Shown here: positions 16,924 to 37,487 of the stretch, in pieces | How the letters are laid out: the number at the start of each line of letters is the position of its first letter | How positions within the stretch are numbered: position 1 is the first letter of the stretch | Assembly: GCA_009839505.1 (NCBI GenBank) | Contig: VXPO01000103.1 | Span: forward strand, 1 to 40,088 | DNA length: 40,088 nt | Direction: 5' to 3' | From: Gammaproteobacteria bacterium | Lineage (GTDB): Bacteria; Pseudomonadota; Gammaproteobacteria; Pseudomonadales; Azotimanducaceae | Made by a program: the position numbers and the translations under genes | The notes under the pieces: generated by a model | Database searches by the model: none | Told to the model about the DNA's origin: nothing | Seen by the model: only the letters and a program-made list of their open reading frames with translations

Positions 16924-17175
16924 CTACCAGCAGCAGCAGAGGCCGGCCGAGATAGCTTCGAGCTGCTCCTCGGTGATGTTCGGATCCGGCGGCAGCGCGA
17001 GATGCACGGTCTGCATGTCGCTCTCATGGATCTTGATGGTCATCGACTCGGGAATCGTGATGCCCAGTTCATTGCTGATGGTGCTCTTCGGATCTGCGAG
17101 AAGCTGCGCCCTGAATTCCTCGTCAAGGGCGGACTTCTCAACGATCTGCTGCAACATTTCGTCGCCACTTCTCAT
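16924..17175 (-). CDS. NHLP-leader RiPP precursor with core LCCCW (precursor A)
   Basis: This 83-residue precursor reads from an ATG at 17173-17175 preceded by an ideal AGGAGG site. It has a nitrile-hydratase-alpha-like leader: a helical start, FRAQLLADPKSTISNELGI, then TVHLALPPDPNITEEQLEAI. It ends SAG-LCCCW. NHLP leaders normally end in a small-residue pair cut by a C39 peptidase, so cleavage after Ala-Gly would leave the pentapeptide Leu-Cys-Cys-Cys-Trp. Three consecutive cysteines are apt substrates for the YcaO cyclodehydratase. The gene is transcribed against the rest of cluster A, with its own promoter and a hairpin after its stop. The paralogous precursor B has the same ending with Leu for Trp. 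The product could be a tri-thiazol(in)e peptide or a thiol/thiazoline metal ligand; both are inference. Confidence 0.92.
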   Translation of the reverse strand: MRSGDEMLQQIVEKSALDEEFRAQLLADPKSTISNELGITIPESMTIKIHESDMQTVHLALPPDPNITEEQLEAISAGLCCCW

Positions 17176-17224
17176 GGCAATCCTCCTATTCGCTATCGGC
17201 GTTGGATGTCGACCGACGAAGGCG

Positions 17225-17278
17225 AACGTAGCATGGCGCCACTAGGACCCTCAAGCATGCCCATGATGTATCAGTTTG
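17225..17278 (-). promoter_or_regulatory. Promoter of precursor A with motif shared with precursor B
   Basis: Read on the minus strand: CAAACTGATACA (17278-17267), 11 bases, then CTTGA overlapping a -35 element TTGAGG (17254-17249), and a weak -10 TACGTT (17230-17225) after 18 bases. The 12-base motif and its 11-base distance to CTTGA recur upstream of precursor B (32449-32438). This points to a shared activator site or UP-like element. Confidence 0.55.
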
Positions 17279-17473
17279 AATTTCCAGGACGCGTTTTGGA
17301 CGTTGCGCCTCGCATCGTCGCATCGCGGAAGCGGAGCCGTGGTCTGGCGCGGTCCGAACGGCCTGAACGCTTCGGGCCGCAGACCCCGCTGCTGTGCGCG
17401 TGGGCATGCCGCCGCCGGGTGCCGCCCGTGATTCAAGGTACAATGCAAATCGTCCATCGCGGAACCTGTGCGG

Positions 17474-18316
17474 ATGCTTCCTGACCAGATCGTTCCCAAA
17501 GTTGGTCTGTCGGCCAAGGCTGGGGGAAGGGTTTTGCACGTCTTGGTTCCCGTGTGCCTGGGCCTGGCGAATCCACAGGCCTTTGCCCAGGAAGAAACGC
17601 CGGAGGACAAGGGCTTGAGGCTCGCGCAGGAGGCGAGCGCCCGCAACGACGGCTTCGGGGATTTCACGGCTGCAATGACGATGGTGCTGCGGGACCGGCA
17701 TGGGCGGGAGAGCATCCGACAGATGCGCTTCAAGGTGCTGGAAGTGCCGGAGGACGGAGACAAGAGCCTGTTCGTGTTCGACCAACCACGAGATGTGCAG
17801 GGAACGGCTTTGTTGACCCACGCCCATGTCAATGCTCAGGACGACCAGTGGCTGTATCTGCCGGCCCTCAAGCGGGTGAAGCGCATCAGTGCATCGACTC
17901 GTTCCGGATCCTTCATGGGAAGCGAGTTCTCATACGAGGACATGAGCTCTCCGGTGGTGGAGGAGTACACCTACAAGTACCTCTACGATGAGCCCTGTGG
18001 CGAACTCACTTGCACGGTAACCGAGCAAGTTCCCTTGGCTAGGGAGTCCGGATACAGCCGCAAGGTCACGTGGCAGGACAGGGGCGAGCTTCGAGCGTGG
18101 AAGGTGGAGCTCTACGATCGTCGGGGGTTTCACCTCAAGACGCTGAGTTTCTCTGGCTACGAGCGATACTTGGATCGATACTGGCGGGCGGCCGAACAGA
18201 CGATGGTGAATCATCTAACCGGCGCCAGCACCGTGCTCAAGTGGACCGACTTTCGTTTCAATACCGATCTTAGCGAGACCGAATTCACGCAAACGGCGCT
18301 TCGACGTGTCCGCTGA
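17474..18316 (+). CDS. LolA-like outer-membrane lipoprotein-sorting-type periplasmic protein
   Basis: The 280-residue protein has a Sec signal peptide (hydrophobic run VLHVLVPVCLGLA, cleavage after AFA before QEE). The mature part has the beta-rich LolA-like fold signature of the exporter-associated family: FTAAMTMVLRD near the start, then QDDQWLYLPALKRVKRIS, SGSFMGSEFSYEDM and a C-terminal KWTDFRFNTDL. These proteins sit in the periplasm with RND/MMPL exporters and probably carry or receive a lipophilic cargo. Here the exporter itself lies at 1043. An upstream GTG at 17468 is a possible alternative start. A TACAAT -10-like element lies at 17439-17444. The stop overlaps the ATG of the next gene (TGATG), so the two are co-transcribed and divergent from precursor A. 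Confidence 0.85.
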   Translation: MLPDQIVPKVGLSAKAGGRVLHVLVPVCLGLANPQAFAQEETPEDKGLRLAQEASARNDGFGDFTAAMTMVLRDRHGRESIRQMRFKVLEVPEDGDKSLFVFDQPRDVQGTALLTHAHVNAQDDQWLYLPALKRVKRISASTRSGSFMGSEFSYEDMSSPVVEEYTYKYLYDEPCGELTCTVTEQVPLARESGYSRKVTWQDRGELRAWKVELYDRRGFHLKTLSFSGYERYLDRYWRAAEQTMVNHLTGASTVLKWTDFRFNTDLSETEFTQTALRRVR

Positions 18317-19575
18317 TGCGGCTCGGCGTCACAATCGCGGCCCGCGCGTCTTGGATCCTCGCGATTGGCGCACTGACACCCCTAGGTGCCACGGATGCCG
18401 AGGCGCAGGTTTTCGACTTGACGGGGGACGTGAGCCTTCAGGCGCGGTGGTATCCGCAATCGCCCGCTTTCCCCGGTCAGCGTTCGAGTACCGGCGGGCT
18501 CGTTCTTGAGCCGACGCTCTACGCGGAGACAACCCAAGGAACCAGCTTCACGTTCACGCCGCTCTACCGATACGACAGCGCCGATTCCCGGCGTACCCAT
18601 GCGGACGTCCGCGAAGCCTACCTGTTGATGTACGGAGATTGGGGAGAGAATGCCTGGGAGCTTCGGTTGGGCCTCGACCGCGTGTTCTGGGGGGTGGCGG
18701 AGCTGAACAACCTGGTGGACATCGTCAACCAGTTGGACCTCGTCGAACACCCGCGCAATCGACCGAAGCTCGGTCAACCCATGGCCCATCTGACGGTGTC
18801 CGGCGACTGGGGAATCGCGGAGTCGTTGCTGCTGCCGTATCACCGCGAGCGCACGTTTCCCGGGCGCGCCGGGCGGCTCCGCTCGGGTCTCCTGGTCGGC
18901 GATGACGCGCGCTACGAGAGTGGTGCCGAAGAGCGCCACGTGGATTTCGCGTTTCGCTATGGCAATACCGTCGGGTTGCTTGATTTGGGCCTAAGCGCGT
19001 TCGTTGGTACGAGTCGCGAACCATCGTTCTTCGTCGGTGATCCGACCGGGCCGTTGCCCACAACCGCTACACAACTAATCCCGTACTACGAGCAGATTCG
19101 ACAGGTTGGGGTTGATGCGCAACTCACGACCGAGGCCTTGCTCTACAAGATGGAGGTCATTCGACGCGGCGGTGCGAGCAATCTCGTCGGCCGAGAGCAG
19201 GACTACAGCGCGTTCATCTTCGGTGTGGAACGCCCTCTCTACGCGCTGTTCGACTCTCCGGCCGACTTGACGTTGCTTGTCGAATGGCACTACGACGACC
19301 GCGACCGTTTGGCCACGACCGCCTGGGCGAACGACCTGTTCATAGCGGGATTTCTTACGTTAAACGATGTGCAGGGCACAGAGTTCGTTGCTGGACTCCT
19401 CGGTGATATTCGGCATGACTCCCGTGCGCTGAGCCTGGAAGTGAAACGCCGTCTGGGGGCGAGCTGGTCTTTGCGCCTGGAGGCCATCGTGAACTTGAGC
19501 GTGGACCCGCAGGATCTGACCTACGGTGGTCGTCGGGACAGCTTCCTGGGTGTGGAGCTCTCGTTAAGCTTCTAA
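18316..19575 (+). CDS. Probable outer-membrane beta-barrel protein of the RND/LolA-like export set
   Basis: The 419-residue protein begins with a signal peptide (hydrophobic segment to about residue 30, cleavage near AEAQ). It consists of alternating amphipathic strands such as WELRLGLDRVFWG and SWSLRLEAIVNLSV, and ends in GVELSLSF, the C-terminal Phe typical of barrel proteins recognised by the BAM machinery. The arrangement resembles the DUF1302-like porin-type proteins that accompany RND exporters and LolA-like proteins. It is translationally coupled to the LolA-like gene by a one-base overlap. The substrate is unknown. A role as outer-membrane exit for the RND cargo is inferred from neighbourhood. 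Confidence 0.75.
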   Translation: MRLGVTIAARASWILAIGALTPLGATDAEAQVFDLTGDVSLQARWYPQSPAFPGQRSSTGGLVLEPTLYAETTQGTSFTFTPLYRYDSADSRRTHADVREAYLLMYGDWGENAWELRLGLDRVFWGVAELNNLVDIVNQLDLVEHPRNRPKLGQPMAHLTVSGDWGIAESLLLPYHRERTFPGRAGRLRSGLLVGDDARYESGAEERHVDFAFRYGNTVGLLDLGLSAFVGTSREPSFFVGDPTGPLPTTATQLIPYYEQIRQVGVDAQLTTEALLYKMEVIRRGGASNLVGREQDYSAFIFGVERPLYALFDSPADLTLLVEWHYDDRDRLATTAWANDLFIAGFLTLNDVQGTEFVAGLLGDIRHDSRALSLEVKRRLGASWSLRLEAIVNLSVDPQDLTYGGRRDSFLGVELSLSF

Positions 19576-19796
19576 GCCCCCGGAGGCGGCGGTGCTACGA
19601 ATCCGCAGCCCATTGCGTCCGTCGAATCGTATGGGCGACCCATGTGGTCATCCGTCTCCGTGTTGTCTGGCGGTCTGCTGCGCCTGTCCAGCTGGACGAT
19701 GGTGTTAAGGTTGCCGTGGGGTGTTAGGGTGGCTTGGACTTTGCACCGGGGTGCTACGAAGGGTAGTCGGCGGACACCTCGGCAAGGCGTGGTGGA

Positions 19797-21071
19797 ATGA
19801 TACAGCCAGGCAGTGAGTCGCTCAGAAAGATCGCGGTCGTTGGACGGGGAACCGCCGGATCACTGGCGGCCGCCAGCGTGACGCGTCTTCATCCCGACGG
19901 GGAGCACGAGTTGCACCACATCTACGATTCTCGCATCCCCGTAATCGGGGTGGGTGAGGGTAGCTGGCCTAGTCTCGTTCAGGAGCTGCATCAACTGACC
20001 AGCTTGCCCCATGAGGCCGTCCAGCAACGCTTGAAAGGCACCCGCAAGTACGGCGTGGCATTCGAGGGCTGGGGTCGGCGCAGCCGAAACTTCACCCACT
20101 ACTTCACGCCACAGCAAGTGTCCTACGCCTACCACCTTTCCGCCGACTTGATGGGTGAGTTGCTCCACGAAAGCACGCGCGCGCAGCACATCGACGCACG
20201 AGTGCTCAACATCAACCGGGTAGCGGACGGCGCAGAGGTGGAATTCGAGGGCCGGGCGCCGGAACGCTACGATCTGGTCTTTGATGCTCGCGGATTTCCC
20301 AAGGAACTCCTTCCCGAGGCGCACATCGATATCTCGTTCATCCCCACCAACACGGCTGTCATACGCCGTTGTCCCTCGATCATCGAAGAACGGCAGGATG
20401 GACCGGTAACGGAACATACCTATACCCGGGCGGTTGCGCGTCCGCACGGTTGGGTATTCGTCATTCCACTTACGGCACACACATCCTACGGCTATATCTT
20501 CAACCGCGATGTGTCGAGCGTTGGCGAAGTCGAATCCGATTTCGACGAGTTCCTCGAAGCCGATGGCGTCCCGGAGTTCGAGCAACGCGCCGTCATTCAG
20601 TTTCCCAACTATGTCCACCGACAGATATTCGATGGTGCAATCGCCCGCGTGGGAAACGCGGCGGCTTTCATGGAGCCCCTGGAAGCGACGGCGATCGTAT
20701 CCGCCCAGCTGCAGGTGGGGATGGTTCTTCAGATCCGCCTGAACCGCCCGATTGAGCATCTGGCGCGAGACGCCCCGGCGGTCAACCGGTTCCTCATCAA
20801 CAACATGCTCTGCTACGGTCTGTTCGTGGGTTGGCACTACTCGTGCGGTTCCAGCTACGACAGCGAATTTTGGCGTCACGCCCGCGGCCACGTCTGGCCC
20901 CGACACCGCGAGGCGATGGATCCCGAGGCGGTGGATTGTGCTGCGCTCAGCAAGTTCGACGAAATGATCGATCTGCTCAAGGCGCCGGTCATCGACAAGG
21001 GGGACTGGAATCGGATGTGTGCGGTCCCTCTAACCAGCTATGCCCAGATGTCCCAGGGTCTTGGCTGTTGA
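19797..21071 (+). CDS. Flavin-dependent tryptophan-halogenase-family enzyme (cluster B)
   Basis: The 424-residue protein has an FAD-binding GxGxxG (GRGTAG) near the N-terminus, where VVGRGTAGSLAA begins the fold. It keeps the residues typical of flavin-dependent tryptophan halogenases. Lys84, in RKYGVAFEGW, sits where the hypohalite-binding Lys is found. EPLEAT (Glu293-Thr298) corresponds to EPLEST with its catalytic Glu. The usual GWxWxIP is GWVFVIP (about 218-224), with Phe for the second Trp. Halogenation, or an oxidase variant of it, is plausible. It needs reduced flavin from a partner not in the window. It is the first gene of the cluster B operon, 30 bases before the HlyD adaptor. Precursor A ends in Trp and precursor B in Leu, so if it halogenates Trp it would act on the other cluster's core, or on an unrelated substrate. 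Confidence 0.83.
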   Translation: MIQPGSESLRKIAVVGRGTAGSLAAASVTRLHPDGEHELHHIYDSRIPVIGVGEGSWPSLVQELHQLTSLPHEAVQQRLKGTRKYGVAFEGWGRRSRNFTHYFTPQQVSYAYHLSADLMGELLHESTRAQHIDARVLNINRVADGAEVEFEGRAPERYDLVFDARGFPKELLPEAHIDISFIPTNTAVIRRCPSIIEERQDGPVTEHTYTRAVARPHGWVFVIPLTAHTSYGYIFNRDVSSVGEVESDFDEFLEADGVPEFEQRAVIQFPNYVHRQIFDGAIARVGNAAAFMEPLEATAIVSAQLQVGMVLQIRLNRPIEHLARDAPAVNRFLINNMLCYGLFVGWHYSCGSSYDSEFWRHARGHVWPRHREAMDPEAVDCAALSKFDEMIDLLKAPVIDKGDWNRMCAVPLTSYAQMSQGLGC

Positions 21072-21101
21072 GCGGATAGCACTGGCGCATCGAGGCAGAC
21101 G

Positions 21102-21977
21102 GTGTTCAACAATCCGTTCCGTCAGGACGCTATGGCGAGCAGGAACCAGCGCCAGCAGCTCGATCATCTGTTGCGGATCACCGCCCCGCACGAGCGAGTC
21201 GTCCTCCTCGTCGTCGGATTGATCCTCCTTGGACTCGTTGCCTGGGCGTGCCTCGGGAGCGTTCGCATCGGGGTGACAGGCAACGGCGTGCTGATCGAAC
21301 CAGGCGAACGACACGACGTGGCGTCGATCGAACCCGGAAATCTTCTCGAATACCTGGTCGCCCCGGGCGATCTTGTGAAGGTCGGCGATCCCATCGCACG
21401 GCAGAGCGTGCCGGAGCTGGATCGTGAAGTCGCCGACCTGCGCAACCGGATCGATCTCATGGAGTCGGAGGGCGGCGAGGTTGGCGAGGGCGTGGAATCA
21501 CTGGTGGCGTTGGCCCGGGTTGCCCTGTTGCAGGCGCAGACGCGGCGCGCAACCCGGCAATTGATCGTCAGCCAGATCGACGGCGAGGTCATGGCCCTGC
21601 GGTCCGCCCGGGGCGCGTACCTGCCGGTGGGCGCCGCCGTTGCGCAGATCCGCACGTCGGACGAGTCGTCGCTTGAAGCCGTATTGTTGCTTGCGCCGCG
21701 TATGGCGCGGAGGCTGAGTCCCGGGATGACGGCGGCCGTCGACGTTCTGACGCCCGCAGGCGACCCCCAACGCCTCGATGGGAAGGTTGTCGGAGTGACC
21801 CCTGGCGCCGTTCCATCGTGGCTTGCGGCGCTGCAGCCGCATGCCCCTGACCCACGGCATCGCGTCGATGTCGTGCTGGACGAGATGGACCTTGAGCTAC
21901 CGGACGGCACACCCTGCCGGGTCAGCATCCGCATCGACCGCCGACCGGCGGCGGCGCTGCTGGATCTCGTCCACTAG
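21102..21977 (+). CDS. HlyD-family secretion adaptor of NHLP peptide exporter (cluster B, full length)
   Basis: The 291-residue protein has a cytoplasmic start, one transmembrane helix (about residues 34-52), a lipoyl-like region (VASIEPGNLLEYLVAPGDLV and later VSQIDGEVMALRSARG), a short coiled-coil segment (about 106-160), and a beta-barrel C-terminus. This fits the NHLM secretion protein family, periplasmic adaptors linking the ABC transporter to an outer-membrane channel. It starts with GTG 30 bases after the halogenase-like gene and ends one base before the next start. It is the complete counterpart of the truncated cluster A adaptor and could serve both transporters. Confidence 0.85.
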   Translation: MFNNPFRQDAMASRNQRQQLDHLLRITAPHERVVLLVVGLILLGLVAWACLGSVRIGVTGNGVLIEPGERHDVASIEPGNLLEYLVAPGDLVKVGDPIARQSVPELDREVADLRNRIDLMESEGGEVGEGVESLVALARVALLQAQTRRATRQLIVSQIDGEVMALRSARGAYLPVGAAVAQIRTSDESSLEAVLLLAPRMARRLSPGMTAAVDVLTPAGDPQRLDGKVVGVTPGAVPSWLAALQPHAPDPRHRVDVVLDEMDLELPDGTPCRVSIRIDRRPAAALLDLVH

Positions 21978-21978
21978 G

Positions 21979-24183
21979 GTGTCACGTCAACCCACAACCT
22001 CGACCCCGGCGAGCGGGAAGGGCAGACGGCGTGTCACCACGCCGCTGTTGATGCAGACGCACGCGACCGAATGCGGGGCTGCGTGTCTCGGCAGCATACT
22101 GGCCTACTTCGGGCGATGGATACCATTCGCGGAGCTGCGCAGCCGCTGCGAGGTGAGTCGCGACGGTTCCACCGCCGCTGCCATCTCCCGCGCTGCCAAG
22201 TTCTACGGTCTGGACTGCAAGGGGTGGCACGGCGAACTGCGGCACCTTCGGACGTTGCCGTTGCCGCTGGTTCTTTTCTGGGAGTTCAACCATTTTCTCG
22301 TCCTCGAAGGTTTCGATCGCGACCACTTCTACCTGAACGACCCTGCCACAGGCCGCCGCAAGCTCACGGAAGTCGAGTTCAGCAAGAGCTTCACGGGGGT
22401 CGCCTTGCGTTTCGGCAAGGGGCCGGAGTTCCGCGCAGGTGGTGTCCGATTCAGTGTCCTGCGGCGCCTTCCGGACTGGTTCGCCGGCGCTTGGGGCGCG
22501 GTGGCCTTCGCCATGGGGTGCGGGCTCATGCTGTCTGCGCTGGCCTTGGCGACACCGGCGACACTTGCGGTGTTCGTGGATCAGGTGTTGGGCGCGGGTG
22601 AGCCCTGGGGAGGCGCGCTGGCGGGGGTCCTGGCCGCAGCGGCCGTCCTCGTCTACGGACTCACGTGGCTGAAAAAGCTGTGTTTGTCGCGCTTGGCCGT
22701 GCGCATCTCGGTGATTGTGGGCAACCGATGCCTGACACGACTCCTGCGACTGCCGGTGGACTACTTTGGACATCGTCTGGTCGGGGAACTGACGTCGCGG
22801 GTGCAATCTGTTGACCGGATCGCCAAGGGACTGGCGGAAAAGTTCCTTGGTGTGCTGATCGAAGTCGCGATGAGCGCGGTGTTCCTTGTTGTCATGTTCG
22901 CGTACGACGCCGTGCTCGCCGCGTTGGTCCTGGGGCTCGCGGTGCTGAACGCCATGCTCGTGTGGATGATCGCTCGAGTTCGGACCGACGAAGCTCACAC
23001 ATGGCGGCGTGAGCAGGGACTGTTGCTCGGCGTGGGCACGCTCATGCTGCACCAGTCGGACTCGCTTCGCATGACCGCCGAGGACGATGACTTCTTCGTC
23101 CGCTGGAGTGCGCACCACGCGCGCGAACTCGCCGCCCGTCAAAAGTTCGCCGAACTCGGCCACGCCAACTCGGCGATGCCCGGCCTGTTCCTGGTGTTGG
23201 GCAACGCCGTGGTGCTGGCCGTGGGCGCAGTCGAAGTCATGGCGGGTCAGTGGACGCTCGGTGGCCTCGTGGGTTTCTACATCGTCGCGGCGATGTTCCT
23301 GGAGCCCGTTGGACGTTTCGTCGAGTTTTCCGACGAACGGCAAGCGCTGGAGACGGACATGCAGCGTCTCGACGACATCCTGGAGACGGAGGAGGATCGG
23401 TCGTTTGCCCGTCGGACCAGCCGGCCCGACACCGTCGCCACCGTCGGCGGGCGCCTGAGGTTCGCCGGAAGGGTGGAGTTGCGGGAGATCACGTTCGGCT
23501 ACAACCGGGCCAAGCCGCCGCTGCTCAAGGACTTCAACCTCGTGATCGAACCCGGACAGCGGATTGCCGTGGTCGGTCCGAGCGGCTCGGGCAAGTCGAC
23601 GTTGGCGAGATTGGTCGCGGGCATCTACCAGCCCTGGTCCGGCGAGATCCTGTTCGACGGTCTAGCGCGCAACGACATACCCGAGGAAGTGCTCTCCCGG
23701 TCCCTGTCCATGGTGGACCAGGAGGCCGTGCTGTTCTCCGGAACCGTGCGCGACAACATCTGCCTTTGGAATCCTGCCTTCCCCGACGAGGCCGTGGTCG
23801 CGGCGGCAAGGGATGCCTGCATCCACGACGAGATTCTCACCCGCGTCCGCGGCTACGAGACGGACGTCGACGAAGATGGCGCCAACTTCAGCGGCGGACA
23901 GCGCCAGCGTCTTGAAATCGCTCGTGCGCTGGTAGGTGGTCCCACGGTGCTGATTCTCGACGAGGCAACGAGCGCTCTCGATGCATCCACCGAAGAGCGT
24001 GTAGACGACGCGCTGCGCCGCCGGGGTGTGAGTTGCCTGATCGTTGCGCATCGTCTGAGCACCGTTCGCGACTGCGACCAGATCATCGTCCTCGACAAGG
24101 GCGAGGAAGTGCAGCGCGGCACGCATGGCGAGCTGATGGCCGACGACAACGGCACCTACGCGCGACTCGTGAGGGTGAGTTGA
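21979..24183 (+). CDS. NHLP-type peptidase/permease/ATPase ABC transporter (C39 leader protease), cluster B
   Basis: The 734-residue protein parallels the cluster A transporter. The C39 domain has the catalytic Cys in ECGAACL, the His in FNHFLVLEG and the Asp in NDPATGRR. The membrane domain and ATPase follow, with GPSGSGKST, FSGGQRQR and LDEATSALD. It should cleave an NHLP leader and export the core. I chose GTG 21979, one base after the adaptor stop. The frame is open further upstream, but only through the adaptor's coding sequence, and the resulting N-terminus would not match the paralogue. It overlaps the next gene by four bases if that gene starts at TTG 24180. Confidence 0.92.
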   Translation: MSRQPTTSTPASGKGRRRVTTPLLMQTHATECGAACLGSILAYFGRWIPFAELRSRCEVSRDGSTAAAISRAAKFYGLDCKGWHGELRHLRTLPLPLVLFWEFNHFLVLEGFDRDHFYLNDPATGRRKLTEVEFSKSFTGVALRFGKGPEFRAGGVRFSVLRRLPDWFAGAWGAVAFAMGCGLMLSALALATPATLAVFVDQVLGAGEPWGGALAGVLAAAAVLVYGLTWLKKLCLSRLAVRISVIVGNRCLTRLLRLPVDYFGHRLVGELTSRVQSVDRIAKGLAEKFLGVLIEVAMSAVFLVVMFAYDAVLAALVLGLAVLNAMLVWMIARVRTDEAHTWRREQGLLLGVGTLMLHQSDSLRMTAEDDDFFVRWSAHHARELAARQKFAELGHANSAMPGLFLVLGNAVVLAVGAVEVMAGQWTLGGLVGFYIVAAMFLEPVGRFVEFSDERQALETDMQRLDDILETEEDRSFARRTSRPDTVATVGGRLRFAGRVELREITFGYNRAKPPLLKDFNLVIEPGQRIAVVGPSGSGKSTLARLVAGIYQPWSGEILFDGLARNDIPEEVLSRSLSMVDQEAVLFSGTVRDNICLWNPAFPDEAVVAAARDACIHDEILTRVRGYETDVDEDGANFSGGQRQRLEIARALVGGPTVLILDEATSALDASTEERVDDALRRRGVSCLIVAHRLSTVRDCDQIIVLDKGEEVQRGTHGELMADDNGTYARLVRVS

Positions 24184-27095
24184 CCGGCGTGGCCACTCTG
24201 CCGACCCTCGCCAGCCTTGCCCGCGCGTCCGGAGAGGTCGTGGCTTGCGCGGGCAACCTGCCGGTGGACCTCGGGGATCCGGATTCCGTTTGGTTCATCG
24301 ACCAGGGCGCAGTCGATCTGTTCGTGGTGGAGCGACGGGACGGGGTGGAGGAAACAGCGCCTCAGCACCTGCTGCGTGCAGCGTCGGGGCGTCTGCTGCC
24401 GGGTATTTCGCCGCTCGTCGGCGAGACAACCCTGGGTCTTGTGGCGAAGGGTCTGCCCGACACGGTCCTGCTGCGCATACCCGTGGATCGCCTGACTGGC
24501 ATCGAGCCAGCCGAGCTGGCGGAGCACGTCGACACCTGGCTGATGGACCTTTCCGCCATGCTCGCCAGGGATGTCGAACGACCCCAGCCGGATGCCTTGG
24601 TGGAGGCTGGCGAGTCGACTGCGGCCATGGTCGGGACGATTTCGAGTCGTCGCGGCGTGGTGTGGGTGTCGCCGCCGGGCGAAGGGTTGTTCCTGGGCCT
24701 GATACCGTCTGCCGACGGAGGGTCGGGGGAGGATCCTCCCGCCGAGGCGTTGCCGCTCACGTCGGACACCTGGCTTTCATTGGTCGGCAAGCGGGACGTG
24801 TCGGTCCGCACCTCGGAGTCGCTGGCCGTCGAGCGGCGCCTGCTTTCCGCGCTGCAGAGCTTCCATGCCGTCGCCTTCGCGTTGGAGCGTCTCAACCGCA
24901 GCCTCGCGGTTGTCGACCAGGCGAACTTGGACCGGGAGCGGGCGACCAGTCGCCATCTCGAAGAGGAGGGTGCTAGGAGGCGGCTGTTCAACCTCTACGG
25001 CCTGTTGGAGGAGGACACGGCGTCAGCCGATGTGGCGTTGCGGAACATCCTGCAAGTCATCGGCCGTTACACGGGGATCGAGTTCAGATTCCCGCCGGCT
25101 AGGGACTCGGATGACCCCGCTGATTCCCTGCGTGGAATCCTCGACGCCTCGGGGGTCCGAGCGCGGCGTGTCCGACTCGCCCGGGAGGATCGGTGGTGGG
25201 TCGGCGACAATGGCGCCATGTTGGCCTTCCGCGCGGACGACGGCAGGCCCGTGGCGCTCCTGCCAGGGTTTCTCGGACGCTATCGGGAGGTGGATCCGGC
25301 AACCGGTCGAAGTAGCCGGGTCACCGCCGGACGGAGCGAAACACTGGGCGGAACCGCCTGGCTTCTCTACCGCACCATGACCTCCAGGGCGGCAGGAACG
25401 AGGGATCTTTGGCGGATTGCCAAAGAGGGTCTGACCCCGGATCTGGTGCGTTTTGTCGTTGCCGGACTGTTGGGCGGTCTCGTGCTGCTGCTGCCCGCGT
25501 TGGTGCTGGGATTCGTCGCGGACGAGATCGTTCCCGCCGGGGACCCGGGGCCGCTGATGTTCGTCGTTGCCGGGCTTGCGGCATTCGGCTTGTTCGGCGC
25601 GTTGTTGCATCTACTCCAGGGAATGGCTCTCATGTCCCTTGAGGCGCGGGTGGCCACCCGGGTCGAGGCTGCGTTCTGGGACCGGCTGTTGCGGCTGCCG
25701 GCAGAGTTCCTCCGCAGGCATGCAGCTGGCGATCTCGCTGCCCGGGGCATGGCGTTCCAGGGCATCCGCGATTCCGTTCAGGGTCTCGTCGTCAACGCGG
25801 TGCTTTCCATCGTATTCCTCGCGCCGGCGTTCCTGGTCATCTTCCTGTACGACCCCGTGCTTGGCGGCGTGACGGCCGCATTCGGACTTCTTTCGCTCGT
25901 CGTCAGCGTACTGTTGGGGTTGCGCCAGATCTCGCCCCACGGTCGTGTCGTCGGCACCGTTCAGGCGCTGGCGGGCCGGCTGTTCCAACTCATCAACGGC
26001 GTCGCCACGCTCCGGGTCGACGGTGCGGAAGGCTCGGCGTTCGCGGTCTGGGCACGGCACTACCGTTCGCAGAAACGTGCGGAACTTCAACTCGGAGCGC
26101 TTCAGGGTCACCTTCAGGCCTTCGGCACGGCCCTGCCTTTGCTGGCGGGCGCGGTATTGCTGCTGGCGATGACGTTGCCGGGACGCGAAACCGTGTCGGT
26201 AGGCGGATTCCTGGTGATCTACACGGTGTTCATGGTCTTCCAGACAGCGGTGGCGCGGCTCGGGGCATCGTTCAGTGCAGTGGCCGCCGCACTGCCGGCC
26301 TTCCGGCAGATCCAACCGCTGCTTGCGGCACCGCTCGAGACTGGTGCGGACGGAGAGCCGGTCGACCGTTTGAGCGGCGAGATCCGCTTCGACCACGTCA
26401 GCTTCCGGTACGACGCCGACGGGCCGCTGATCGTCGATGATGTCTCGATCGAAGCCCGCCCGGGCGAGCTCGTCGCCATCGCCGGGGAGTCTGGTGCGGG
26501 CAAGAGCACCCTATTCAGGCTTGCCTTGGGTCTGGCCCAGCCCACCACGGGGGCCGTGTACTACGACGGCCGCGATCTTGCGCACCTCAACGTCAACCAG
26601 GTCAGACGCCAGATCGGTGCGGTGCCGCAGCAGGTTCAGCTGCATCCCCAGGATCTGTGGGACAACATCGTCGGCGACCATGAAGGCGTCACCGCGCAGG
26701 ACGCCTGGCAGGCGGCGAGGACGGCGGTGATCGATACCGAGATAGCCGCCATGCCCATGGGTATGATGACGCCGGTCGGTGCCAGCGCCAGCGTCACGTC
26801 GGGCGGAGAGAATCAGCGGATCTCGATCGCGCGGGCCTTGGTTCGCAAACCCCGCATTCTTCTGCTCGACGAGGCAACGAACTGGCTGGACAACGAGAGC
26901 CAGGCTCGAATCATGCACAACCTGGCGGCGTTGACGTCGACGCGGATCGTCATCGCGCACCGTCTGTCGACGCTCCGCCAAGCCGATCGGATCTACGTGA
27001 TGCAGGCGGGCAGGGTGGTCCAGACTGGGTCGTTCGACGAACTGGCGGGAATCGCTGGCGTGTTCCGCGACCTGATGCGCCGACAGCTCGTGTGA
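24180..27095 (+). CDS. NHLP-type ABC transporter permease/ATPase, second subunit (cluster B)
   Basis: The roughly 971-residue paralogue of the cluster A subunit has the N-terminal VACAGNLPVDLGDPDSVWFI block, a membrane domain (about 470-715), and an ATPase with GESGAGKST, SGGENQR (where the A copy has SGGESQR) and LLDEATNWLD. The start is uncertain: TTG 24180 overlaps the previous stop and has GAGG five bases before it, while GTG 24189 is three codons later. It pairs with the C39 transporter. The NW in the Walker B/D-loop region is kept in both copies and so is a lineage feature. Confidence 0.88.
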   Translation: MTGVATLPTLASLARASGEVVACAGNLPVDLGDPDSVWFIDQGAVDLFVVERRDGVEETAPQHLLRAASGRLLPGISPLVGETTLGLVAKGLPDTVLLRIPVDRLTGIEPAELAEHVDTWLMDLSAMLARDVERPQPDALVEAGESTAAMVGTISSRRGVVWVSPPGEGLFLGLIPSADGGSGEDPPAEALPLTSDTWLSLVGKRDVSVRTSESLAVERRLLSALQSFHAVAFALERLNRSLAVVDQANLDRERATSRHLEEEGARRRLFNLYGLLEEDTASADVALRNILQVIGRYTGIEFRFPPARDSDDPADSLRGILDASGVRARRVRLAREDRWWVGDNGAMLAFRADDGRPVALLPGFLGRYREVDPATGRSSRVTAGRSETLGGTAWLLYRTMTSRAAGTRDLWRIAKEGLTPDLVRFVVAGLLGGLVLLLPALVLGFVADEIVPAGDPGPLMFVVAGLAAFGLFGALLHLLQGMALMSLEARVATRVEAAFWDRLLRLPAEFLRRHAAGDLAARGMAFQGIRDSVQGLVVNAVLSIVFLAPAFLVIFLYDPVLGGVTAAFGLLSLVVSVLLGLRQISPHGRVVGTVQALAGRLFQLINGVATLRVDGAEGSAFAVWARHYRSQKRAELQLGALQGHLQAFGTALPLLAGAVLLLAMTLPGRETVSVGGFLVIYTVFMVFQTAVARLGASFSAVAAALPAFRQIQPLLAAPLETGADGEPVDRLSGEIRFDHVSFRYDADGPLIVDDVSIEARPGELVAIAGESGAGKSTLFRLALGLAQPTTGAVYYDGRDLAHLNVNQVRRQIGAVPQQVQLHPQDLWDNIVGDHEGVTAQDAWQAARTAVIDTEIAAMPMGMMTPVGASASVTSGGENQRISIARALVRKPRILLLDEATNWLDNESQARIMHNLAALTSTRIVIAHRLSTLRQADRIYVMQAGRVVQTGSFDELAGIAGVFRDLMRRQLV

Positions 27096-27107
27096 TCGGA
27101 GGGTTTC

Positions 27108-29567
27108 GTGGCGGAAGGTAGTGCCGAGTCGGGCGGGTCGGGTGTCGCAGTGCCGGGTGCCTCGCTGCCGCTGCGGCCATCGGTATGGCGCGCCATCCCG
27201 TTCTTCCTGCCGCTGGCGATCTTTCCGTTGATCGTCAACGCCGCCCTGCAGGGCGGCTGGTGGATGCTGGCGCCGTTGCTGGCCACGCTCGCCAGCAACT
27301 TGGATCCGTTGTTCGGCGTCGAGAAGCGCAACATCGATCCGAACAACACGCGCGATCGGGCACTCGTCGGGTACAAGCTGGCGCTGTGGCTCTGGGCCGT
27401 GCTCTGGCCGCCGACGCTCGTTTTCGCGCTTTGGCAGATGCTGGTGGTGGGCGACCTCGGTCTCGGGGAGGGCGTGCTCATGGCGGCGGTGCTGGCCGGC
27501 GCTGCGCAAAGCGTGTTCATTGTCGGCCACGAGTTGATCCACAAGCGGTCCGCCTGGGAGCGCCGGGTCGGCGAATTCCTGCTGTCGTCGGTGTCGTACC
27601 CGCAATACGCGTCGGAGCACGTGTACGTTCACCACGTCCTCGTCGGCACCCCCAGTGACTCGGGATCCGCACCGAAGAGCTTAAGTTTCTGGCGTTACTT
27701 TCCCAAGGAGTTGCGCGCCAATCTCGTCGGCTCGTGGGCGCTCGAGCGGGAACGGCTCGCACGGCGTCAACAGCCGAGCTGGCACTACAGGAATCCGTTC
27801 TGGCGCTACGCCGTCGAAACCGGATTCTGGTACGTGCTGGTGTACTGGATGGCCGGTGCCTGGGCCGTCCCCGTGTACGCCGTTGTTTGCCTCGGGGTCA
27901 TCCTGTCGATGAAGCTCACCAACTATGTCCAGCACTACGGGCTGCAGCGCCTGCGTCTGGCCAACGGGCGGTTCGAGCGAATGCAACCCCACCACTCGTG
28001 GCATGCGTCCTTCCGGCTCAGCAACTGGCTCTTCTTCAACATGCAGAGGCATCCCGACCACCACGCCAATCCGGATCGGCGCTACGCCCTGCTGCAATAC
28101 ACCGGCGACGACGTGGCGCCGCAACTGCCGGCGACGTACGCGGCGATGGCGGGCCTCGCCTTGGTGCCGAAGGCCTGGTTCCGCAGGATGAATCCATTGG
28201 TCGATCAGTGGCGGGCGCGGTTCTATCCGAACACGGCCGATTGGAGCGTCTACGAAAGCCGGGCCTTCGCTGCGAGACCCGACATGTTCGAGGTCATCGC
28301 CGAGATCATGGGCGCGGCGCCGAGGCTGGCGGAGCGGATCGACCGCAGTCCACAACTGCTCGATCGTCTCGGCGACGCGGAGTTCACTGATCTCGAACTA
28401 CCCGACGGATTCGGACCCGATGCCGAGTTCGAGATGTTCGCCCGCCAAGGACTGGCGCGGTTGTACTGGACGCACGAACTGGGCGTTGCCGAGATGCTGG
28501 AACAGATTGTGGAGATTCCGGTGCGCAACGTCGAGGACACGGTTGAAGCCGTCCGCTACTGGATGAACGGCAAGGCCTTCCAAGTCGGCGTACACACCAT
28601 GCGCGGCAACCTGTCTCCGCTGGAGGCAGGCCAGAGTCTCGCGAACATCGCCGAGGCGTCGATCGTCGCCCTGCTGCACGCGGTGGAAGAGGAGTTGGAC
28701 GCATCGCCGGACCAACCGGGTGGGGTGGCCGCCGTCGTACTGGGCGACTTGGCCAGCGGACAGGTTGCGCCGGGTGTGGATATCGAGTTGATTCTCGTCC
28801 ACGACGACGCCAATGCCGAACACTGCAGGAGTCTCTCCCGGCGCATTGACGCTGCGCTTCGCGATCTCTCCTCCGACAACCTGCTGTTCGCGCCGTTCGA
28901 CCCGGGGAATCTGCTGCTTGCGCCTTTCGAGCCACAGCGACGCGAACGGCGGGTTCGCGCACTGTGGGACCTCAGCGTGCACCACGGTGCCGATGGCGCT
29001 GTCGACGAAGTACTCGAACTCACCCGAGCACGGTGCGTACATTCAAGCGGTCGCGAGGAGATCGCCGACGAGTTCGAACAGGCAAGGCGCCGGATTCTCG
29101 GCAGCGCCGAAGCCCGCGAGCTGTTGATCCGGGCGCAACGGGAGCCGCGGAACACCGAGGTCGTACCCGCGCCGTTCACCACCGACGACATGCCCGGCGG
29201 GCTCTGGGAGCTCGAACGCGCGGTGCGTCGGCTCCAGGTGGGTCACGGGGTCGACAACCCGGACCTCATGGCCCTCGACGCCCAATCCATCGTCGCGGCG
29301 GCCGGCGACCGCGCCCTGATCGCCGACGACTTGGCATCCCGGCTGGCGGAAGCCGCGAACCTGTGGCGCAGTCTGCGGGGCATCCTGCTACTCGTCATGG
29401 AAGAAGCCGGCGACGTGGAAGCGGCGCCGGAGGCCACGAAGGCAGTCGTTGCCCGGGCCTGCGGCATGGCTGATTTCGATTCGCTCGGCACTGCGGTTTC
29501 CGAGATGGCGTCGCGGACCGTGGCCGACCTGGAAGCGGCGGCGGGCCGTTCGACCATGCGGCGGTGA
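27108..29567 (+). CDS. AlkB-like membrane diiron hydroxylase fused to a GlnE-like domain, cluster B
   Basis: This 819-residue paralogue of the protein at 10936 has histidine boxes HELIH (about 142), EHVYVHH (about 170), NYVQHYG (about 271) and MQRHPDHHA (about 312), all within the membrane N-terminal half. The C-terminal half again follows GlnE: RLAERIDRSPQLLDRL, MRGNLSPLEAGQSLANI, GGVAAVVLGDLASGQV, a LTRARCVHSSGREE segment and MPGGLWELERAVRRLQV. At the nucleotidyltransferase metal site it reads DIELI, so it keeps an acidic D-x-E pair where GlnE has D-x-D and the cluster A copy has G-x-D. It starts with GTG after GGAGGG and overlaps the next gene by 4 bases. Retention of the fusion in both clusters shows it is not an assembly or sequencing artefact. 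Confidence 0.82.
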   Translation: MAEGSAESGGSGVAVPGASLPLRPSVWRAIPFFLPLAIFPLIVNAALQGGWWMLAPLLATLASNLDPLFGVEKRNIDPNNTRDRALVGYKLALWLWAVLWPPTLVFALWQMLVVGDLGLGEGVLMAAVLAGAAQSVFIVGHELIHKRSAWERRVGEFLLSSVSYPQYASEHVYVHHVLVGTPSDSGSAPKSLSFWRYFPKELRANLVGSWALERERLARRQQPSWHYRNPFWRYAVETGFWYVLVYWMAGAWAVPVYAVVCLGVILSMKLTNYVQHYGLQRLRLANGRFERMQPHHSWHASFRLSNWLFFNMQRHPDHHANPDRRYALLQYTGDDVAPQLPATYAAMAGLALVPKAWFRRMNPLVDQWRARFYPNTADWSVYESRAFAARPDMFEVIAEIMGAAPRLAERIDRSPQLLDRLGDAEFTDLELPDGFGPDAEFEMFARQGLARLYWTHELGVAEMLEQIVEIPVRNVEDTVEAVRYWMNGKAFQVGVHTMRGNLSPLEAGQSLANIAEASIVALLHAVEEELDASPDQPGGVAAVVLGDLASGQVAPGVDIELILVHDDANAEHCRSLSRRIDAALRDLSSDNLLFAPFDPGNLLLAPFEPQRRERRVRALWDLSVHHGADGAVDEVLELTRARCVHSSGREEIADEFEQARRRILGSAEARELLIRAQREPRNTEVVPAPFTTDDMPGGLWELERAVRRLQVGHGVDNPDLMALDAQSIVAAAGDRALIADDLASRLAEAANLWRSLRGILLLVMEEAGDVEAAPEATKAVVARACGMADFDSLGTAVSEMASRTVADLEAAAGRSTMRR

Positions 29568-30697
29568 TCGCGCAACGCATGGGCGTTGACAACCTCTGGG
29601 CCGCGACGGAGGACTGCCTGCTCGACGAGGCGGACTCGCTGGGAGAACTGCTGGTGCGCTTACGCGCCAAGGTTCCGACCGCGCTCGTTGGCATTGCGGA
29701 GTTCGCGAGGCTCGTTGATCGCGCCAAAGACCTGCCTGTGACCGCAGCCGCCTTTCCGTTCGGCTTTGAGCTGCCGCTGCACATGGACATCCCCGCAGCT
29801 GACCTGGGCGTCTCGATCGTCGCGGGAAGCAAGACCGCGGCAACGTTCGAGGAGGCAGGGCGGGTCGCGTCCTCCGGCTCGGCGTCCGCGATCGCCCGGC
29901 TGCTCGAAGAGACTGGACGGGATGGGTCTCCTCTCGGTCGCGTCGTCGGGGACAGACTGGTGCTTGAATACGACATCGAGTCGACGCCGGGGCGAGTCCA
30001 TCCCGATCCGGGCATATTCCTCTACCCGGATGACGCGGTGCTTGTCGGTAACGGGACGCGGTTCGACGACGCGGCCCTGGTGGCCGATGCCATCGCCAGC
30101 GCGACCGAATGCCCCTTCGGCGAACCGGAACTCCGCTTGCTCCGGCGCGTGTATCGGGCGATGGACGCCAGCACCTCGGTCAGGGCGGTAGGCGCTTTCC
30201 CCTCCCGGAACAGCGGTATCCGGCTCACCGTTGCGGGATTCCGGGAAACGAAACGGGTCGTGGAGTTCCTGCACGGAGTGGGTTGGCCGGGAGATCTGCC
30301 AACGGTCACCTCGGCCCTTTCGCCGTTGGAACAAGCACGCGCATTCGCCTACCTCGGAGTTCACTTCGACCTGTGTCCCGACGGGGTCGGACCCACGCTG
30401 GGCTTGAGTTGCTACGCCGCCAAGCAGCAGTGGCTGCACGACATCCGGCATTGGACGGCGCTGCTCAACGGCATCGACGCCCAGGGCCACGTCGTAGCGG
30501 AGAAGCTGTCGGCTCTGGCGGCTGCAACCGGAACCGAGACATTGTTCGGCAGGTCCGGCCGCCTCCGGTTGGTGCGCGGAATCCACCATGTGAAGCTGGT
30601 GCTCGCCGAGGATCGGATCGAGCAGGCCAAGGCGTACGTATTCCTGCTGATGGTCGGCATGGGCCCATCGGCCGACCGCCAGCGACCCCGGGCATGA
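29564..30697 (+). CDS. Unknown protein family conserved in both clusters (cluster B copy)
   Basis: The 377-residue paralogue of the protein at 15660 has the same block order (FPFGFELPLH, LVLEYDI, PSR..IRL, GWPG, VGPTLGLS, LFGRSGR, RGIHHVKLVL, QAKAYVFL). It starts with GTG overlapping the AlkB-GlnE stop (GTGA) and ends overlapping the FAD oxidase ATG (ATGA), so it is translationally coupled on both sides. No known family was recognised. Its position directly after AlkB-GlnE here, and after YcaO in cluster A, suggests it works with the hydroxylase or on the peptide. Confidence 0.8.
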   Translation: MIAQRMGVDNLWAATEDCLLDEADSLGELLVRLRAKVPTALVGIAEFARLVDRAKDLPVTAAAFPFGFELPLHMDIPAADLGVSIVAGSKTAATFEEAGRVASSGSASAIARLLEETGRDGSPLGRVVGDRLVLEYDIESTPGRVHPDPGIFLYPDDAVLVGNGTRFDDAALVADAIASATECPFGEPELRLLRRVYRAMDASTSVRAVGAFPSRNSGIRLTVAGFRETKRVVEFLHGVGWPGDLPTVTSALSPLEQARAFAYLGVHFDLCPDGVGPTLGLSCYAAKQQWLHDIRHWTALLNGIDAQGHVVAEKLSALAAATGTETLFGRSGRLRLVRGIHHVKLVLAEDRIEQAKAYVFLLMVGMGPSADRQRPRA

Positions 30698-31962
30698 GCG
30701 GCGTCGAGGAGGAACTGAACGCCAGATCCTTCGACTTCGGGGGCATGATCCGAAGGCGGCCGGGCGCCGTGGCGGCACCAAGGAGCGTCGAGGAGCTGTC
30801 GGACCTCGTACGGAAGGCAGCGCGTGACGGAACGCGGCTGGCCATCCGCGGCGGAGGTCATTCGCAGGGAGGACAGTGCCTCACGGCCGGCGGTCTCGTG
30901 GTCGATACGATGCACCTCGATGGCCTCGAAACCCTGGGTGAAGACCTGGTCCGCGCCCAGGGTGGAACTCCTTGGGGCAAGGTCGTGGATGCGCTGCGCG
31001 GGACCGGTCGGCTGCCATGCGTGCTCGTGGACATCGGCGAAGCCACCGTGGGTGGAACGCTGTCCGCCGGAGGACTCGGTACCGCCTCGCACCGGCACGG
31101 CTTGCAGGTGGAACAGGTCGAGCGACTCGAAGTGGTGACGGGAACAGGCGAGCGGGTCGTGTGCTCGCCGACGCTGAACGCGGCTCTCTTCGATGCCGTC
31201 CGCGGTGGCCAGGGACAGTTCGGCGTCATCGCCCAGGCTTGGATTCGACTCCGCGCGGCCGGCAGCCGGATCCGGCGCTACGAGCTGATCTATCGCGACT
31301 TTGATCGGTTCGCGGACGACTTCGAGCGTGTCGTCGGGGATGGCCGGTTCGACCATCTCAGGGCGGAGACGCGTCTGCACACCGGCAAGATCATCATGGG
31401 TGCCGGGATCGAGCACGACGGCGACGTTGACGACGATGAGGTACTCGAAGAACTGGGACACGATGAAGTCGCCTCCGCCAGCGACACGGCGGATGTCGGG
31501 CAAGCCGGCATCTATCCGGCGTGGGGATTCAGCCGCAGGAATCGCCACCCCTGGAGGGACTGGCTGCTACCGTGGTCCACTCTCCGCACGCTGATCGCGC
31601 AGCCTTGGCTGACGCCGCGTTCGGTACCCCGCGCGCCGTTCAGCTGGACCGGGGTGTATCCGATAAGGACGGGACCGAATGCCGCTCCATGGGTGATGCG
31701 CCCGCAGGGAGAGCTCATCACGTCCTACTCGATTCTCGCCGTCCTGGGCGACCGCGACTGGGCGACCCGTTTGACCGGGCAGTTGCGCGAGATCGACCGG
31801 ACACTGGTCGATCTCGGTGCCAAGAGCTACCTCTCAGGCGACGTGGCGTACGGGCGCCGCGAGTGGGAAGCGCACTACGGCGACAAGCTTGAACTCGGTC
31901 GGGAGTGGAAACGGGAGTTCGATCCGAACAGCGTGTTCGAATCCAACGGCTCGTTCGGGTAG
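30694..31962 (+). CDS. FAD-linked oxidase of the cytokinin-dehydrogenase-like (vanillyl-alcohol oxidase fold) family, cluster B
   Basis: The 422-residue protein has the FAD-binding type 4 domain with IRGGGHSQGGQ near 49-59. The His in GHS is where cytokinin dehydrogenases attach FAD covalently. A second FAD segment GGTLSAGGLGTASHRHG follows, and the C-terminal substrate domain ends HYGDKLELGREWKREFDPNS. Such enzymes oxidise C-N or C-O bonds, often with O2. No McbC-type azoline dehydrogenase was found in the window, so oxidation of thiazolines to thiazoles, or of another tailored group, is a possible role. The start ATG 30694 overlaps the preceding stop (ATGA). Longer upstream reading in this frame lies over the previous gene and is not real. 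It is the last gene of the cluster B operon. Confidence 0.85.
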   Translation: MSGVEEELNARSFDFGGMIRRRPGAVAAPRSVEELSDLVRKAARDGTRLAIRGGGHSQGGQCLTAGGLVVDTMHLDGLETLGEDLVRAQGGTPWGKVVDALRGTGRLPCVLVDIGEATVGGTLSAGGLGTASHRHGLQVEQVERLEVVTGTGERVVCSPTLNAALFDAVRGGQGQFGVIAQAWIRLRAAGSRIRRYELIYRDFDRFADDFERVVGDGRFDHLRAETRLHTGKIIMGAGIEHDGDVDDDEVLEELGHDEVASASDTADVGQAGIYPAWGFSRRNRHPWRDWLLPWSTLRTLIAQPWLTPRSVPRAPFSWTGVYPIRTGPNAAPWVMRPQGELITSYSILAVLGDRDWATRLTGQLREIDRTLVDLGAKSYLSGDVAYGRREWEAHYGDKLELGREWKREFDPNSVFESNGSFG

Positions 31963-32025
31963 CGGTCCGTGGGAGCGACCTTTGTGCACGGCAGTTTGTT
32001 GAGGCGCAGTGCGGTTGTCGGCAAG

Positions 32026-32044
32026 GGCGACCACAAGGGTCGCC
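32026..32044. terminator. Hairpin between convergent FAD oxidase and precursor B
   Basis: GGCGACC and GGTCGCC form a 7-base stem around ACAAG, just beyond the stop of precursor B (32051, minus strand) and 64 bases after the FAD oxidase stop. There is no clear T-run. Confidence 0.4.
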
Positions 32045-32050
32045 TACGGG

Positions 32051-32341
32051 TCAGAGGCAGCAGCACAGGCCTGCGGCGATCGCTTCGAGCTGTTCTTCGT
32101 CGAGGTCCGGGCCGGCAGGCAACGCCATGTAGAGGGTATTCATGTCGCTTTCCAGGACCACGATGTTGATCGATTCCGGAACGTCGATCCCGAACTCCTG
32201 CTTGATGGCGGCCTTGGGATCGGAAACGAGCAACTGCCGGAAGTCCGCATCCACGACGGCCTTCTCGGTGAGTTGGGCGCGCATCTCCTCGGCGGTCTGC
32301 AGCGCCGTCTGAACGAAACCAGGTGGCATCTCTGGCTGCAT
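32051..32341 (-). CDS. NHLP-leader RiPP precursor with core LCCCL (precursor B)
   Basis: This precursor of about 96 residues has an NHLP leader (FRQLLVSDPKAAIKQEFGI, then YMALPAGPDLDEEQLEAI) and ends AAG-LCCCL. Cleavage after Ala-Gly by a C39 transporter would release Leu-Cys-Cys-Cys-Leu. Precursor A is closely similar, including the triple Cys. I chose ATG 32341 (MQPEMPPGFVQ). A longer open frame reaches 32584, but it crosses the shared promoter motif and has no leader homology. An internal ATG at 32329 is also possible. No strong ribosome binding site is seen, only GGAAG about 10 bases upstream. It lies on the opposite strand at the end of cluster B, in the same relative position as precursor A in cluster A. 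Confidence 0.9.
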   Translation of the reverse strand: MQPEMPPGFVQTALQTAEEMRAQLTEKAVVDADFRQLLVSDPKAAIKQEFGIDVPESINIVVLESDMNTLYMALPAGPDLDEEQLEAIAAGLCCCL

Positions 32342-37456: not shown

Positions 37457-37487
37457 CGCCGTCGGCCTGACCACAGGGAGATGTCAC

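Follow-up and report, generated by a model that had tools for sequence, protein, structure and literature searches.

What becomes of two precursor peptides that end, after an Ala-Gly pair, in only five residues, LCCCW in one and LCCCL in the other, is the question raised by a stretch of 40,088 nucleotides from a genome of the Azotimanducaceae (contig VXPO01000103.1 of assembly GCA_009839505.1; hereafter the window, meaning the whole stretch that was analysed). Both precursors carry an NHLP-type (proteusin) leader, as found in some ribosomally synthesized and post-translationally modified peptides (RiPPs), and are referred to here as precursor W and precursor L after their last residue (Table 1). 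The answer that we favour, and hold to be reasonably probable, is that the window encodes two sibling systems for trithiazoline peptides that share a single YcaO enzyme. Both products are probably prenylated, the W peptide being in addition brominated and perhaps terpene-cyclised and the L peptide oxidised by an enzyme dependent on flavin adenine dinucleotide (FAD). The W half belongs to a kind of cluster already known as srp, whereas the L half, together with a series of related cores that come with matched tailoring genes, appears to be new. This last statement is made with a reserve for the founding paper on srp clusters, which reportedly appeared in J Am Chem Soc in 2021.

Two tri-cysteine precursors and a single YcaO

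An earlier note on this DNA had described two minus-strand NHLP precursors ending in AG-LCCCW and AG-LCCCL. Both translations agree with that description and both score above the cut-off of the NCBIfam model TIGR03793 (50.9 bits). The two precursors are 51% identical to each other and both are under purifying selection, the ratio of nonsynonymous to synonymous substitution rates (dN/dS) being ~0.06 for W against a relative in genome G200 (dS 0.59, dN 0.038) and ~0.11 for L against its relative in genome G194 (dS 0.74, dN 0.079). The start of precursor W is preceded by AGGAGG and that of precursor L by a weak purine stretch only. The window genome (4.70 Mb in 181 contigs, with a completeness of 96.11%) contains exactly three NHLP matches, i.e., both precursors and a domain at 9533-9721 that forms part of a terpene cyclase. 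Among 14 control genomes, for which searches were made at the family level only, the NHLP leader occurs in none and YcaO in five.

Judged by its sequence, the W half is an srp cluster, because it joins an LCCCW core to a YcaO with a leader-binding domain and to a halogenase with the residues of SrpI. In the published system, the YcaO SrpC forms three thiazolines in the LCCCW core of SrpE, and SrpI, for which Lys84 (catalytic), Tyr102 and Tyr110 are named, brominates the C-terminal Trp (PMC10858898; PMC10286304). A script reads Lys, Tyr and Tyr at residues 84, 102 and 110 of the window halogenase. The segment NLTEEQL occupies residues 66-72 of SrpE (PMC10858898), and in precursor W the corresponding NITEEQL occupies the same residues, with LCCCW at 79-83. 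The proposal of five-residue cores after AG is supported by a published core, and the suggestion that a YcaO turns the cysteines into thiazolines by published chemistry on LCCCW. The statement of the earlier note that no NHLP product with such a core had been described falls for LCCCW, which is the SrpE core; of LCCCL no description was found in the literature searched. The order of genes in the W cluster is kept in related genomes. Since srp clusters have been met repeatedly in the microbiomes of sponges (PMC9426513), the window genome probably comes from a sponge as well, an origin suggested by analogy with its srp cluster; the record of one relative (L095) names a sponge. Two variant W clusters were also observed: a W-type precursor with the core LSCCW, in which the first Cys is replaced by Ser, lies beside a halogenase 66% identical to that of the window (G002, locus L069), and in G021 (L054) the matches to the YcaO, cyclase and exporter genes are broken up into many short segments, which suggests decay or poor assembly.

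The window shares with the srp clusters of sponge microbiomes the NHLP leader, LCCCW, the YcaO and the Lys84/Tyr102/Tyr110 positions, and adds to them the LCCCL precursor with its own exporters, a prenyltransferase-fold protein and a FAD oxidase. Because the LCCCL core lacks a C-terminal Trp, the L half is better called a sister system than srp proper. In a literature search LCCCW was found in two srp papers, two further matches looking unrelated, and among the papers listed none joined LCCCL or prenylation with srp clusters; the founding 2021 paper, which may list some of these cores or genes, lies outside this search. Words on prenylation, terpenes, monooxygenases or desaturases are absent from the main text of PMC10858898, with the same founding paper outside this count. 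PMC11791876 names both SrpI and a prenyltransferase, the latter as part of another cluster, mpp.

A single YcaO gene was found in the window and, by whole-genome search, in the genome. Precursor L must therefore use the YcaO of the W side, and the simplest reading of the gene content is that one YcaO serves both precursors. Among 52 sequences, the nearest relative of this YcaO is the one beside an MCCCL precursor in G194 (support 0.994), an 81% complete genome that yielded no W precursor. In the proposed pathway, the YcaO would bind the NHLP leader of precursor W and make three consecutive thiazolines, as reported for SrpE, and the same enzyme would make the trithiazoline on LCCCL.

Cores and tailoring genes among relatives

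A profile of the two precursors matches 76 of 206 genomes of the same family (expectation value E <=0.001), many of them weakly or through a leader-fused enzyme. The precursor ends could be read for 36 other family members, as LCCCW in 34, LSCCW in one (G002) and MCCCL in one (G194, of the same genus). A further search alignment (A4, with 8 rows, 3 of them one residue short at the end) matches 8 of 390 genomes of the order with E <=1e-12. With the same alignment, a scan of genome contigs gave at least 148 relatives, the best 80 of which were used for counts of gene content; family-genome loci and contig-scan loci overlap in part and are counted separately. According to the titles of their metagenome-assembled genomes, in which binning may err, these 80 come from Gammaproteobacteria, Alphaproteobacteria, Gemmatimonadetes, Acidobacteria, Nitrospira, Nitrospinota, Binatia, Opitutales and others. 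Their 81 precursors end in LCCCW (67), RCCC (4), LCCC (2) and LCCCGI (2), with LCCCF, LCCCGF, MCCCGI, LSCCM, LSCCL and LSCCV once each. LCCWW in G586 and another RCCC in G338 extend the series. Among all precursors read, LCCCL occurs only in the window genome and MCCCL in one relative. That LCCC endings arise by chance was rejected, given the 34 of 36 family genomes and 67 of 81 precursors with LCCCW.

Gene content was counted within the fetched flanks of 66 W loci and 13 non-W loci, locus L131 being set aside for having both a W and an MCCCGI precursor; at least 18 kb were fetched for 33 W and 9 non-W loci. The earlier note had proposed to look for LCCC-x endings beside YcaO genes, and such a gene does lie near 48/66 W and 12/13 non-W precursors. 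The prenyltransferase-fold gene is near 49/66 and 13/13, respectively. Other genes separate the two groups. The terpene cyclase is near 43/66 W precursors and 0/13 non-W ones (31/33 and 0/9 where at least 18 kb were fetched) and the halogenase near 32/66 and 0/13 (21/33 and 0/9), whereas the FAD oxidase accompanies none of the 66 W and four of the 13 non-W precursors (0/33 and 2/9). LolA follows the W side (19/66 versus 0/13), and MMPL is near 10/13 non-W and 11/66 W precursors, lying often farther from the precursor in W clusters. Whole-genome searches were made in 17 genomes with non-W cores, three of which (the window genome, G591 and G586) also have Trp-ending precursors. The halogenase occurs in two of them, both LCCCW carriers (G000, and G591 as a 126-residue piece), and the full cyclase in the same two, all other cyclase matches being to the leader end only. 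The FAD oxidase occurs in six, with LCCCL, MCCCL, LCCCF, LCCCGI (two) and LCCCGF. In the loci examined, therefore, the brominase and the leader-fused cyclase are found only with Trp cores, and the FAD oxidase only with LCCCL, MCCCL, LCCCF, LCCCGI and LCCCGF. The L half of the window and the other cores of the series amount to a natural experiment in which changes after CCC accompany changes of tailoring enzymes, so that enzyme-substrate rules become readable from genomes in cores of four to six residues. Mixed genomes were seen as well: in G591 (L131) the LCCCW and MCCCGI precursors lie close together at one W cluster, at 6569-7564 (-) and 9994-10261 (+), and G586, with its LCCWW precursor at about 5898-6233 of L196, also has LCCCGI.

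LCCCW and LCCCL come from separate lineages, a point beyond the earlier note. In a tree of the prenyltransferase-fold proteins (every fourth W sequence was included in this tree and in that of the AlkB-like proteins), the 377-residue protein of the L side stands outside the W clade and groups with those beside MCCCL (1.0) and LCCCF (0.92). An origin of L as a recent local copy of W was rejected, a node with support 1.0 uniting the proteins of L, MCCCL, LCCCF, LCCC and RCCC. In the RCCC loci L097, L098, L123 and L149, two diverged copies of this protein are encoded in each locus and make two clades.

Predicted tailoring of the two peptides

Besides the single shared YcaO, the analysis added to the earlier picture the halogenase, the predicted prenyltransferase, the leader-fused terpene cyclase, the AlkB-like oxygenases and the FAD oxidase. 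The 372-residue protein of the W side gave an AlphaFold2 model with a mean predicted local distance difference test score (pLDDT) of 90.4. In Foldseek, every one of the best 50 of 669 matches to this model is an aromatic-type prenyltransferase (lowest E 9.6e-6), and 37 of the 669 reach E 0.001 or better. Within the class, 369 genomes were searched for its gene and three matched, among them the window genome and one with a weak match only (E 5e-12). Nearby copies are lacking at 17 W loci; ten of these were searched genome-wide and the gene lies elsewhere in all ten. As both systems carry a prenyltransferase-fold protein and an AlkB-like monooxygenase, prenylation followed by oxidation is probable for both peptides, the prenyltransferase-fold proteins being predicted from fold and gene content to prenylate the W and L peptides and the AlkB-like enzymes to oxidise the prenylated products. 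The AlkB-like proteins show the histidine motifs of alkane 1-monooxygenase and match it overall (alignments with 8f6t and 8sbb). The prenyl acceptor cannot always be Trp, because the prenyltransferase-fold gene also accompanies cores that have none; in these, Arg, the N-terminus or another site may serve instead.

The terpene cyclase that accompanies Trp cores begins with an NHLP domain, and the fold of its model matches AsDMS (E 1.9e-12), drimenol synthase (E 3.3e-12), squalene-hopene cyclase (E 1.2e-9) and MstE (E 1.6e-9). Its DLDS(S/T) aligns with DLDTT of the drimenol synthase 9mhs and with DLNTT of 9m7d, the latter presumably at the mutated Asp, since 9m7d is the D333N chain of AsDMS. Residues D205, L206, D207 and S208 are invariant in 21 aligned rows, and the motif is of the DxDTT type, which we take to be the acid motif of class II terpene cyclases. 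In the leader domain, Arg stands where L(X)4L has its second Leu, and the junction shows neither GG nor AG, for which reasons the domain may dock the enzyme rather than serve as an export signal. In the W system, this leader-tethered cyclase may, as predicted from fold and gene content, cyclise the prenyl chain; to bring a terpene cyclase to its substrate by fusing it to a RiPP leader would be unusual. The halogenase would brominate the C-terminal Trp of the W core, as shown for SrpE, and in the L system the FAD oxidase probably oxidises the product, e.g., from thiazoline to thiazole. For release, a C39 exporter would cut after AG and export the pentapeptide. A C39 transporter in each cluster, as the earlier note had it, is borne out by two C39/NHLM exporters that score just below the NCBIfam cut-offs; the C39 triad, presumably Cys, His and Asp, is visible in both.

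Should the prenyltransferase-fold protein and the cyclase indeed modify the peptide, then the trithiazoline pentapeptide with bromo-Trp known from publications is an intermediate rather than the end product, and the masses to seek change accordingly. No final srp product is described in the available text of the srp literature (PMC10858898; PMC10286304; PMC9426513; PMC12615548). A wider proposal, which we make tentatively and do not hold as firmly as the reading set out at the start, is that these loci define terpenoid peptides: trithiazoline tetra- to hexapeptides prenylated by enzymes of a new branch of the ABBA type, with bromination and cyclisation added in the Trp versions, where a precursor leader would dock the cyclase. 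The residues after CCC would track the tailoring set, either halogenase plus cyclase or FAD oxidase, and the window genome would make one peptide of each kind with one YcaO.

Competing explanations, known systems and remaining genes

Several observations weigh against the reading of two sibling prenylated trithiazoline systems. We know of no product of the L system. The prenyltransferase assignment is a predicted fold, with query-normalised TM-scores of 0.40-0.53 and identities of 7-14%; compared by sequence with protein families, the 28 members of this family gave two single-member matches to DUFs at chance level (E 0.036 and 0.067), and in a comparison with PDB sequences nothing matched the family up to E 1. 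For the cyclase, the model is less reliable, with a pLDDT of 80.3 and parts of the leader region below 50. Likeness to SrpC, SrpI and SrpE was judged from published descriptions and residue numbers, and of the L(X)4L motif precursor W retains Leu72 and has Ile at 67, where SrpE has the Leu67 that is important for SrpI binding. The gene-content counts are raw, and statistics on them ignore kinship. Two genomes speak against a strict rule linking core and gene content: whole-genome searches found no halogenase and no full cyclase in G586, which carries an LCCWW precursor, and no FAD oxidase in G591, which carries MCCCGI. The FAD oxidase beside MCCCL (L034, 16713-17944, G194) matches in two overlapping pieces and so looks frame-shifted or mis-assembled, and the L contig of the same genome lacks an AlkB-like gene. 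The prenyltransferase-fold tree places the proteins of the LCCCGI, LCCCGF and LSCCx loci on the W side, and in the AlkB-like tree the partner of the L-side protein comes from a W locus (0.74), which together indicate that parts have been exchanged between lineages. Beside the RCCC precursor of G338, neither YcaO nor prenyltransferase-fold gene was found in the 12.4 kb fetched from a contig of 13.4 kb. This contig and the exchanged parts lower confidence slightly.

In the strongest competitor, the prenyltransferase-fold protein, the cyclase and the AlkB-like oxygenase leave the peptide untouched and produce a small terpenoid or lipid of their own, which would be exported together with it. It draws on the facts that the prenyltransferase is assigned from its fold alone, that no known peptide-binding domain was matched in the prenyltransferase-fold or AlkB-like proteins and that an MMPL-type exporter lies upstream. 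A cyclase that bears an NHLP-type domain and tracks the Trp core is hard to place in such a scheme, the prenyltransferase-fold tree largely follows core types, and Trp prenylation with cyclisation, as well as the combination of brominase, prenyltransferase and terpene synthase, have been reported in other RiPP systems described below, so that we regard a separate terpenoid as unlikely. That LCCCL is a degenerating leftover, its precursor no longer modified and without a YcaO of its own, would fit the absence of a YcaO from the L side of the window, with one in the genome, and the weak ribosome-binding site. The low dN/dS of this precursor, the complete L-side set of exporters, prenyltransferase-fold paralogue, AlkB-like fusion and FAD oxidase, and the sister position of the shared YcaO to the one beside MCCCL make this very improbable. 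The earlier note had also considered unmodified cysteines that bind metal as a thiol cluster, and disulfides between free cysteines are a variant of the same idea; three adjacent Cys could indeed bind metal. This idea, which we hardly credit, found no support: YcaO genes lie near most precursors of either type, trithiazoline formation on LCCCW has been published (PMC10858898; PMC10286304), and among the part of the window open reading frames (ORFs) that was scanned no family of metal uptake or export scored above its cut-off.

Prenylated peptides built with similar parts are on record. NctPC attaches a geranylgeranyl group to Trp and afterwards cyclises it (PMC13290415), and RiPPs of this type combine an ABBA-fold prenyltransferase with an MstE-like class II cyclase, as predicted for the window; NctPC joins both activities in one fused enzyme, whereas in the window they are in separate genes, with the cyclase fused to an NHLP domain. 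The mpp cluster of Moorena producens has a brominase, a terpene synthase and an oxygenase (PMC11791876), and its ABBA-type prenyltransferase geranylates Trp (PMC12715784), so that all four activities stand in one RiPP cluster, as predicted for the window. Unlike the window, mpp has a Nif11-type leader and a lanthipeptide core, and no YcaO is named in the available text of these two papers. PalQ of Paenibacillus prenylates the C-terminal Trp of the NHLP precursor PalX, a precursor type shared with the W half, and comes from another prenyltransferase superfamily (PMC10853753). The azole proteusins of MprE, MprC and MprD share with the window an NHLP leader and a YcaO, which in the Mpr system engages the leader at L(X)4L and at helix 1; MprD joins in thiazole formation with flavin mononucleotide (PMC12455567), and no comparable oxidase family was matched in the window ORFs scanned.

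Table 1. Features of the window discussed in the text, in order of position
Feature	Positions	Strand	Remarks
MMPL/RND-type transporter, upstream of W side	1043..3403	+	PF03176; same place in several related clusters
Short HlyD-like adaptor, W side	3476..4012	+	TIGR03794 23 bits, weak
NHLM C39 peptidase-ABC exporter, W side	4015..6222	+	TIGR03796 830.9 bits (cut-off 853.3); PF03412
NHLM second ABC exporter, W side	6222..9161	+	Start chosen; TIGR03797 660 bits (cut-off 709.4; longer ORF from 6072)
NHLP leader domain + class II terpene cyclase domain	9503..10786	+	ATG chosen, ORF opens at 9299; TIGR03793 44.4 bits, below cut-off
AlkB-like alkane monooxygenase + GlnE-like domain, W side	10936..13332	+	PF00487, PF03710; alignment of both copies: 8f6t (alkane 1-monooxygenase) E 2.1e-53, 3k7d (GlnE domain) E 3.4e-9
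YcaO cyclodehydratase with leader-binding domain, SrpC-like	13329..15650	+	TIGR03604, TIGR03882 above cut-off; PF02624
372-aa protein, W side	15660..16778	+	Predicted ABBA-type aromatic prenyltransferase fold; no Pfam/NCBIfam match
Precursor W, SrpE-like NHLP precursor, core LCCCW	16924..17175	-	83 aa, ends EAISAGLCCCW; TIGR03793 68.7 bits
LolA-like protein	17468..18316	+	PF17131 E 3.5e-58
Weak DUF1302 match, possibly outer membrane	18316..19575	+	Below cut-off; syntenic in several related clusters
Flavin-dependent halogenase, SrpI-like	19797..21071	+	PF04820 E 1.3e-43; Lys84, Tyr102, Tyr110
HlyD-like adaptor, L side	21102..21977	+	TIGR03794 88.1 bits (cut-off 156.2)
NHLM C39 peptidase-ABC exporter, L side	21823..24183	+	True start probably near 21976; TIGR03796 842.5 bits, below cut-off; PF03412
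NHLM second ABC exporter, L side	24180..27095	+	Start chosen; TIGR03797 669.8 bits, below cut-off (longer ORF from 24033)
AlkB-like/GlnE-like fusion, L side	27108..29567	+	50% identical to W-side copy
377-aa paralogue, L side	29564..30697	+	38% identical to 372-aa W-side protein; tree
FAD-linked oxidase, cytokinin-dehydrogenase-like, L side	30694..31962	+	Start chosen; PF01565; PF09265 just below cut-off; PDB 4ml8 E 1.5e-37
Precursor L, NHLP precursor, core LCCCL	32051..32341	-	96 aa, ends EAIAAGLCCCL; TIGR03793 74.9 bits

Two single-contig genomes of the same family, G189 and G190, have 14 and 16 NHLP matches, of which 8 and 10, respectively, lie in one array each; the matches end before the core. 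Farther along the window, adjacent genes for LigD and Ku (34734-37256 and 37428-38333) point to bacterial end-joining and are apparently unrelated to the peptide clusters.

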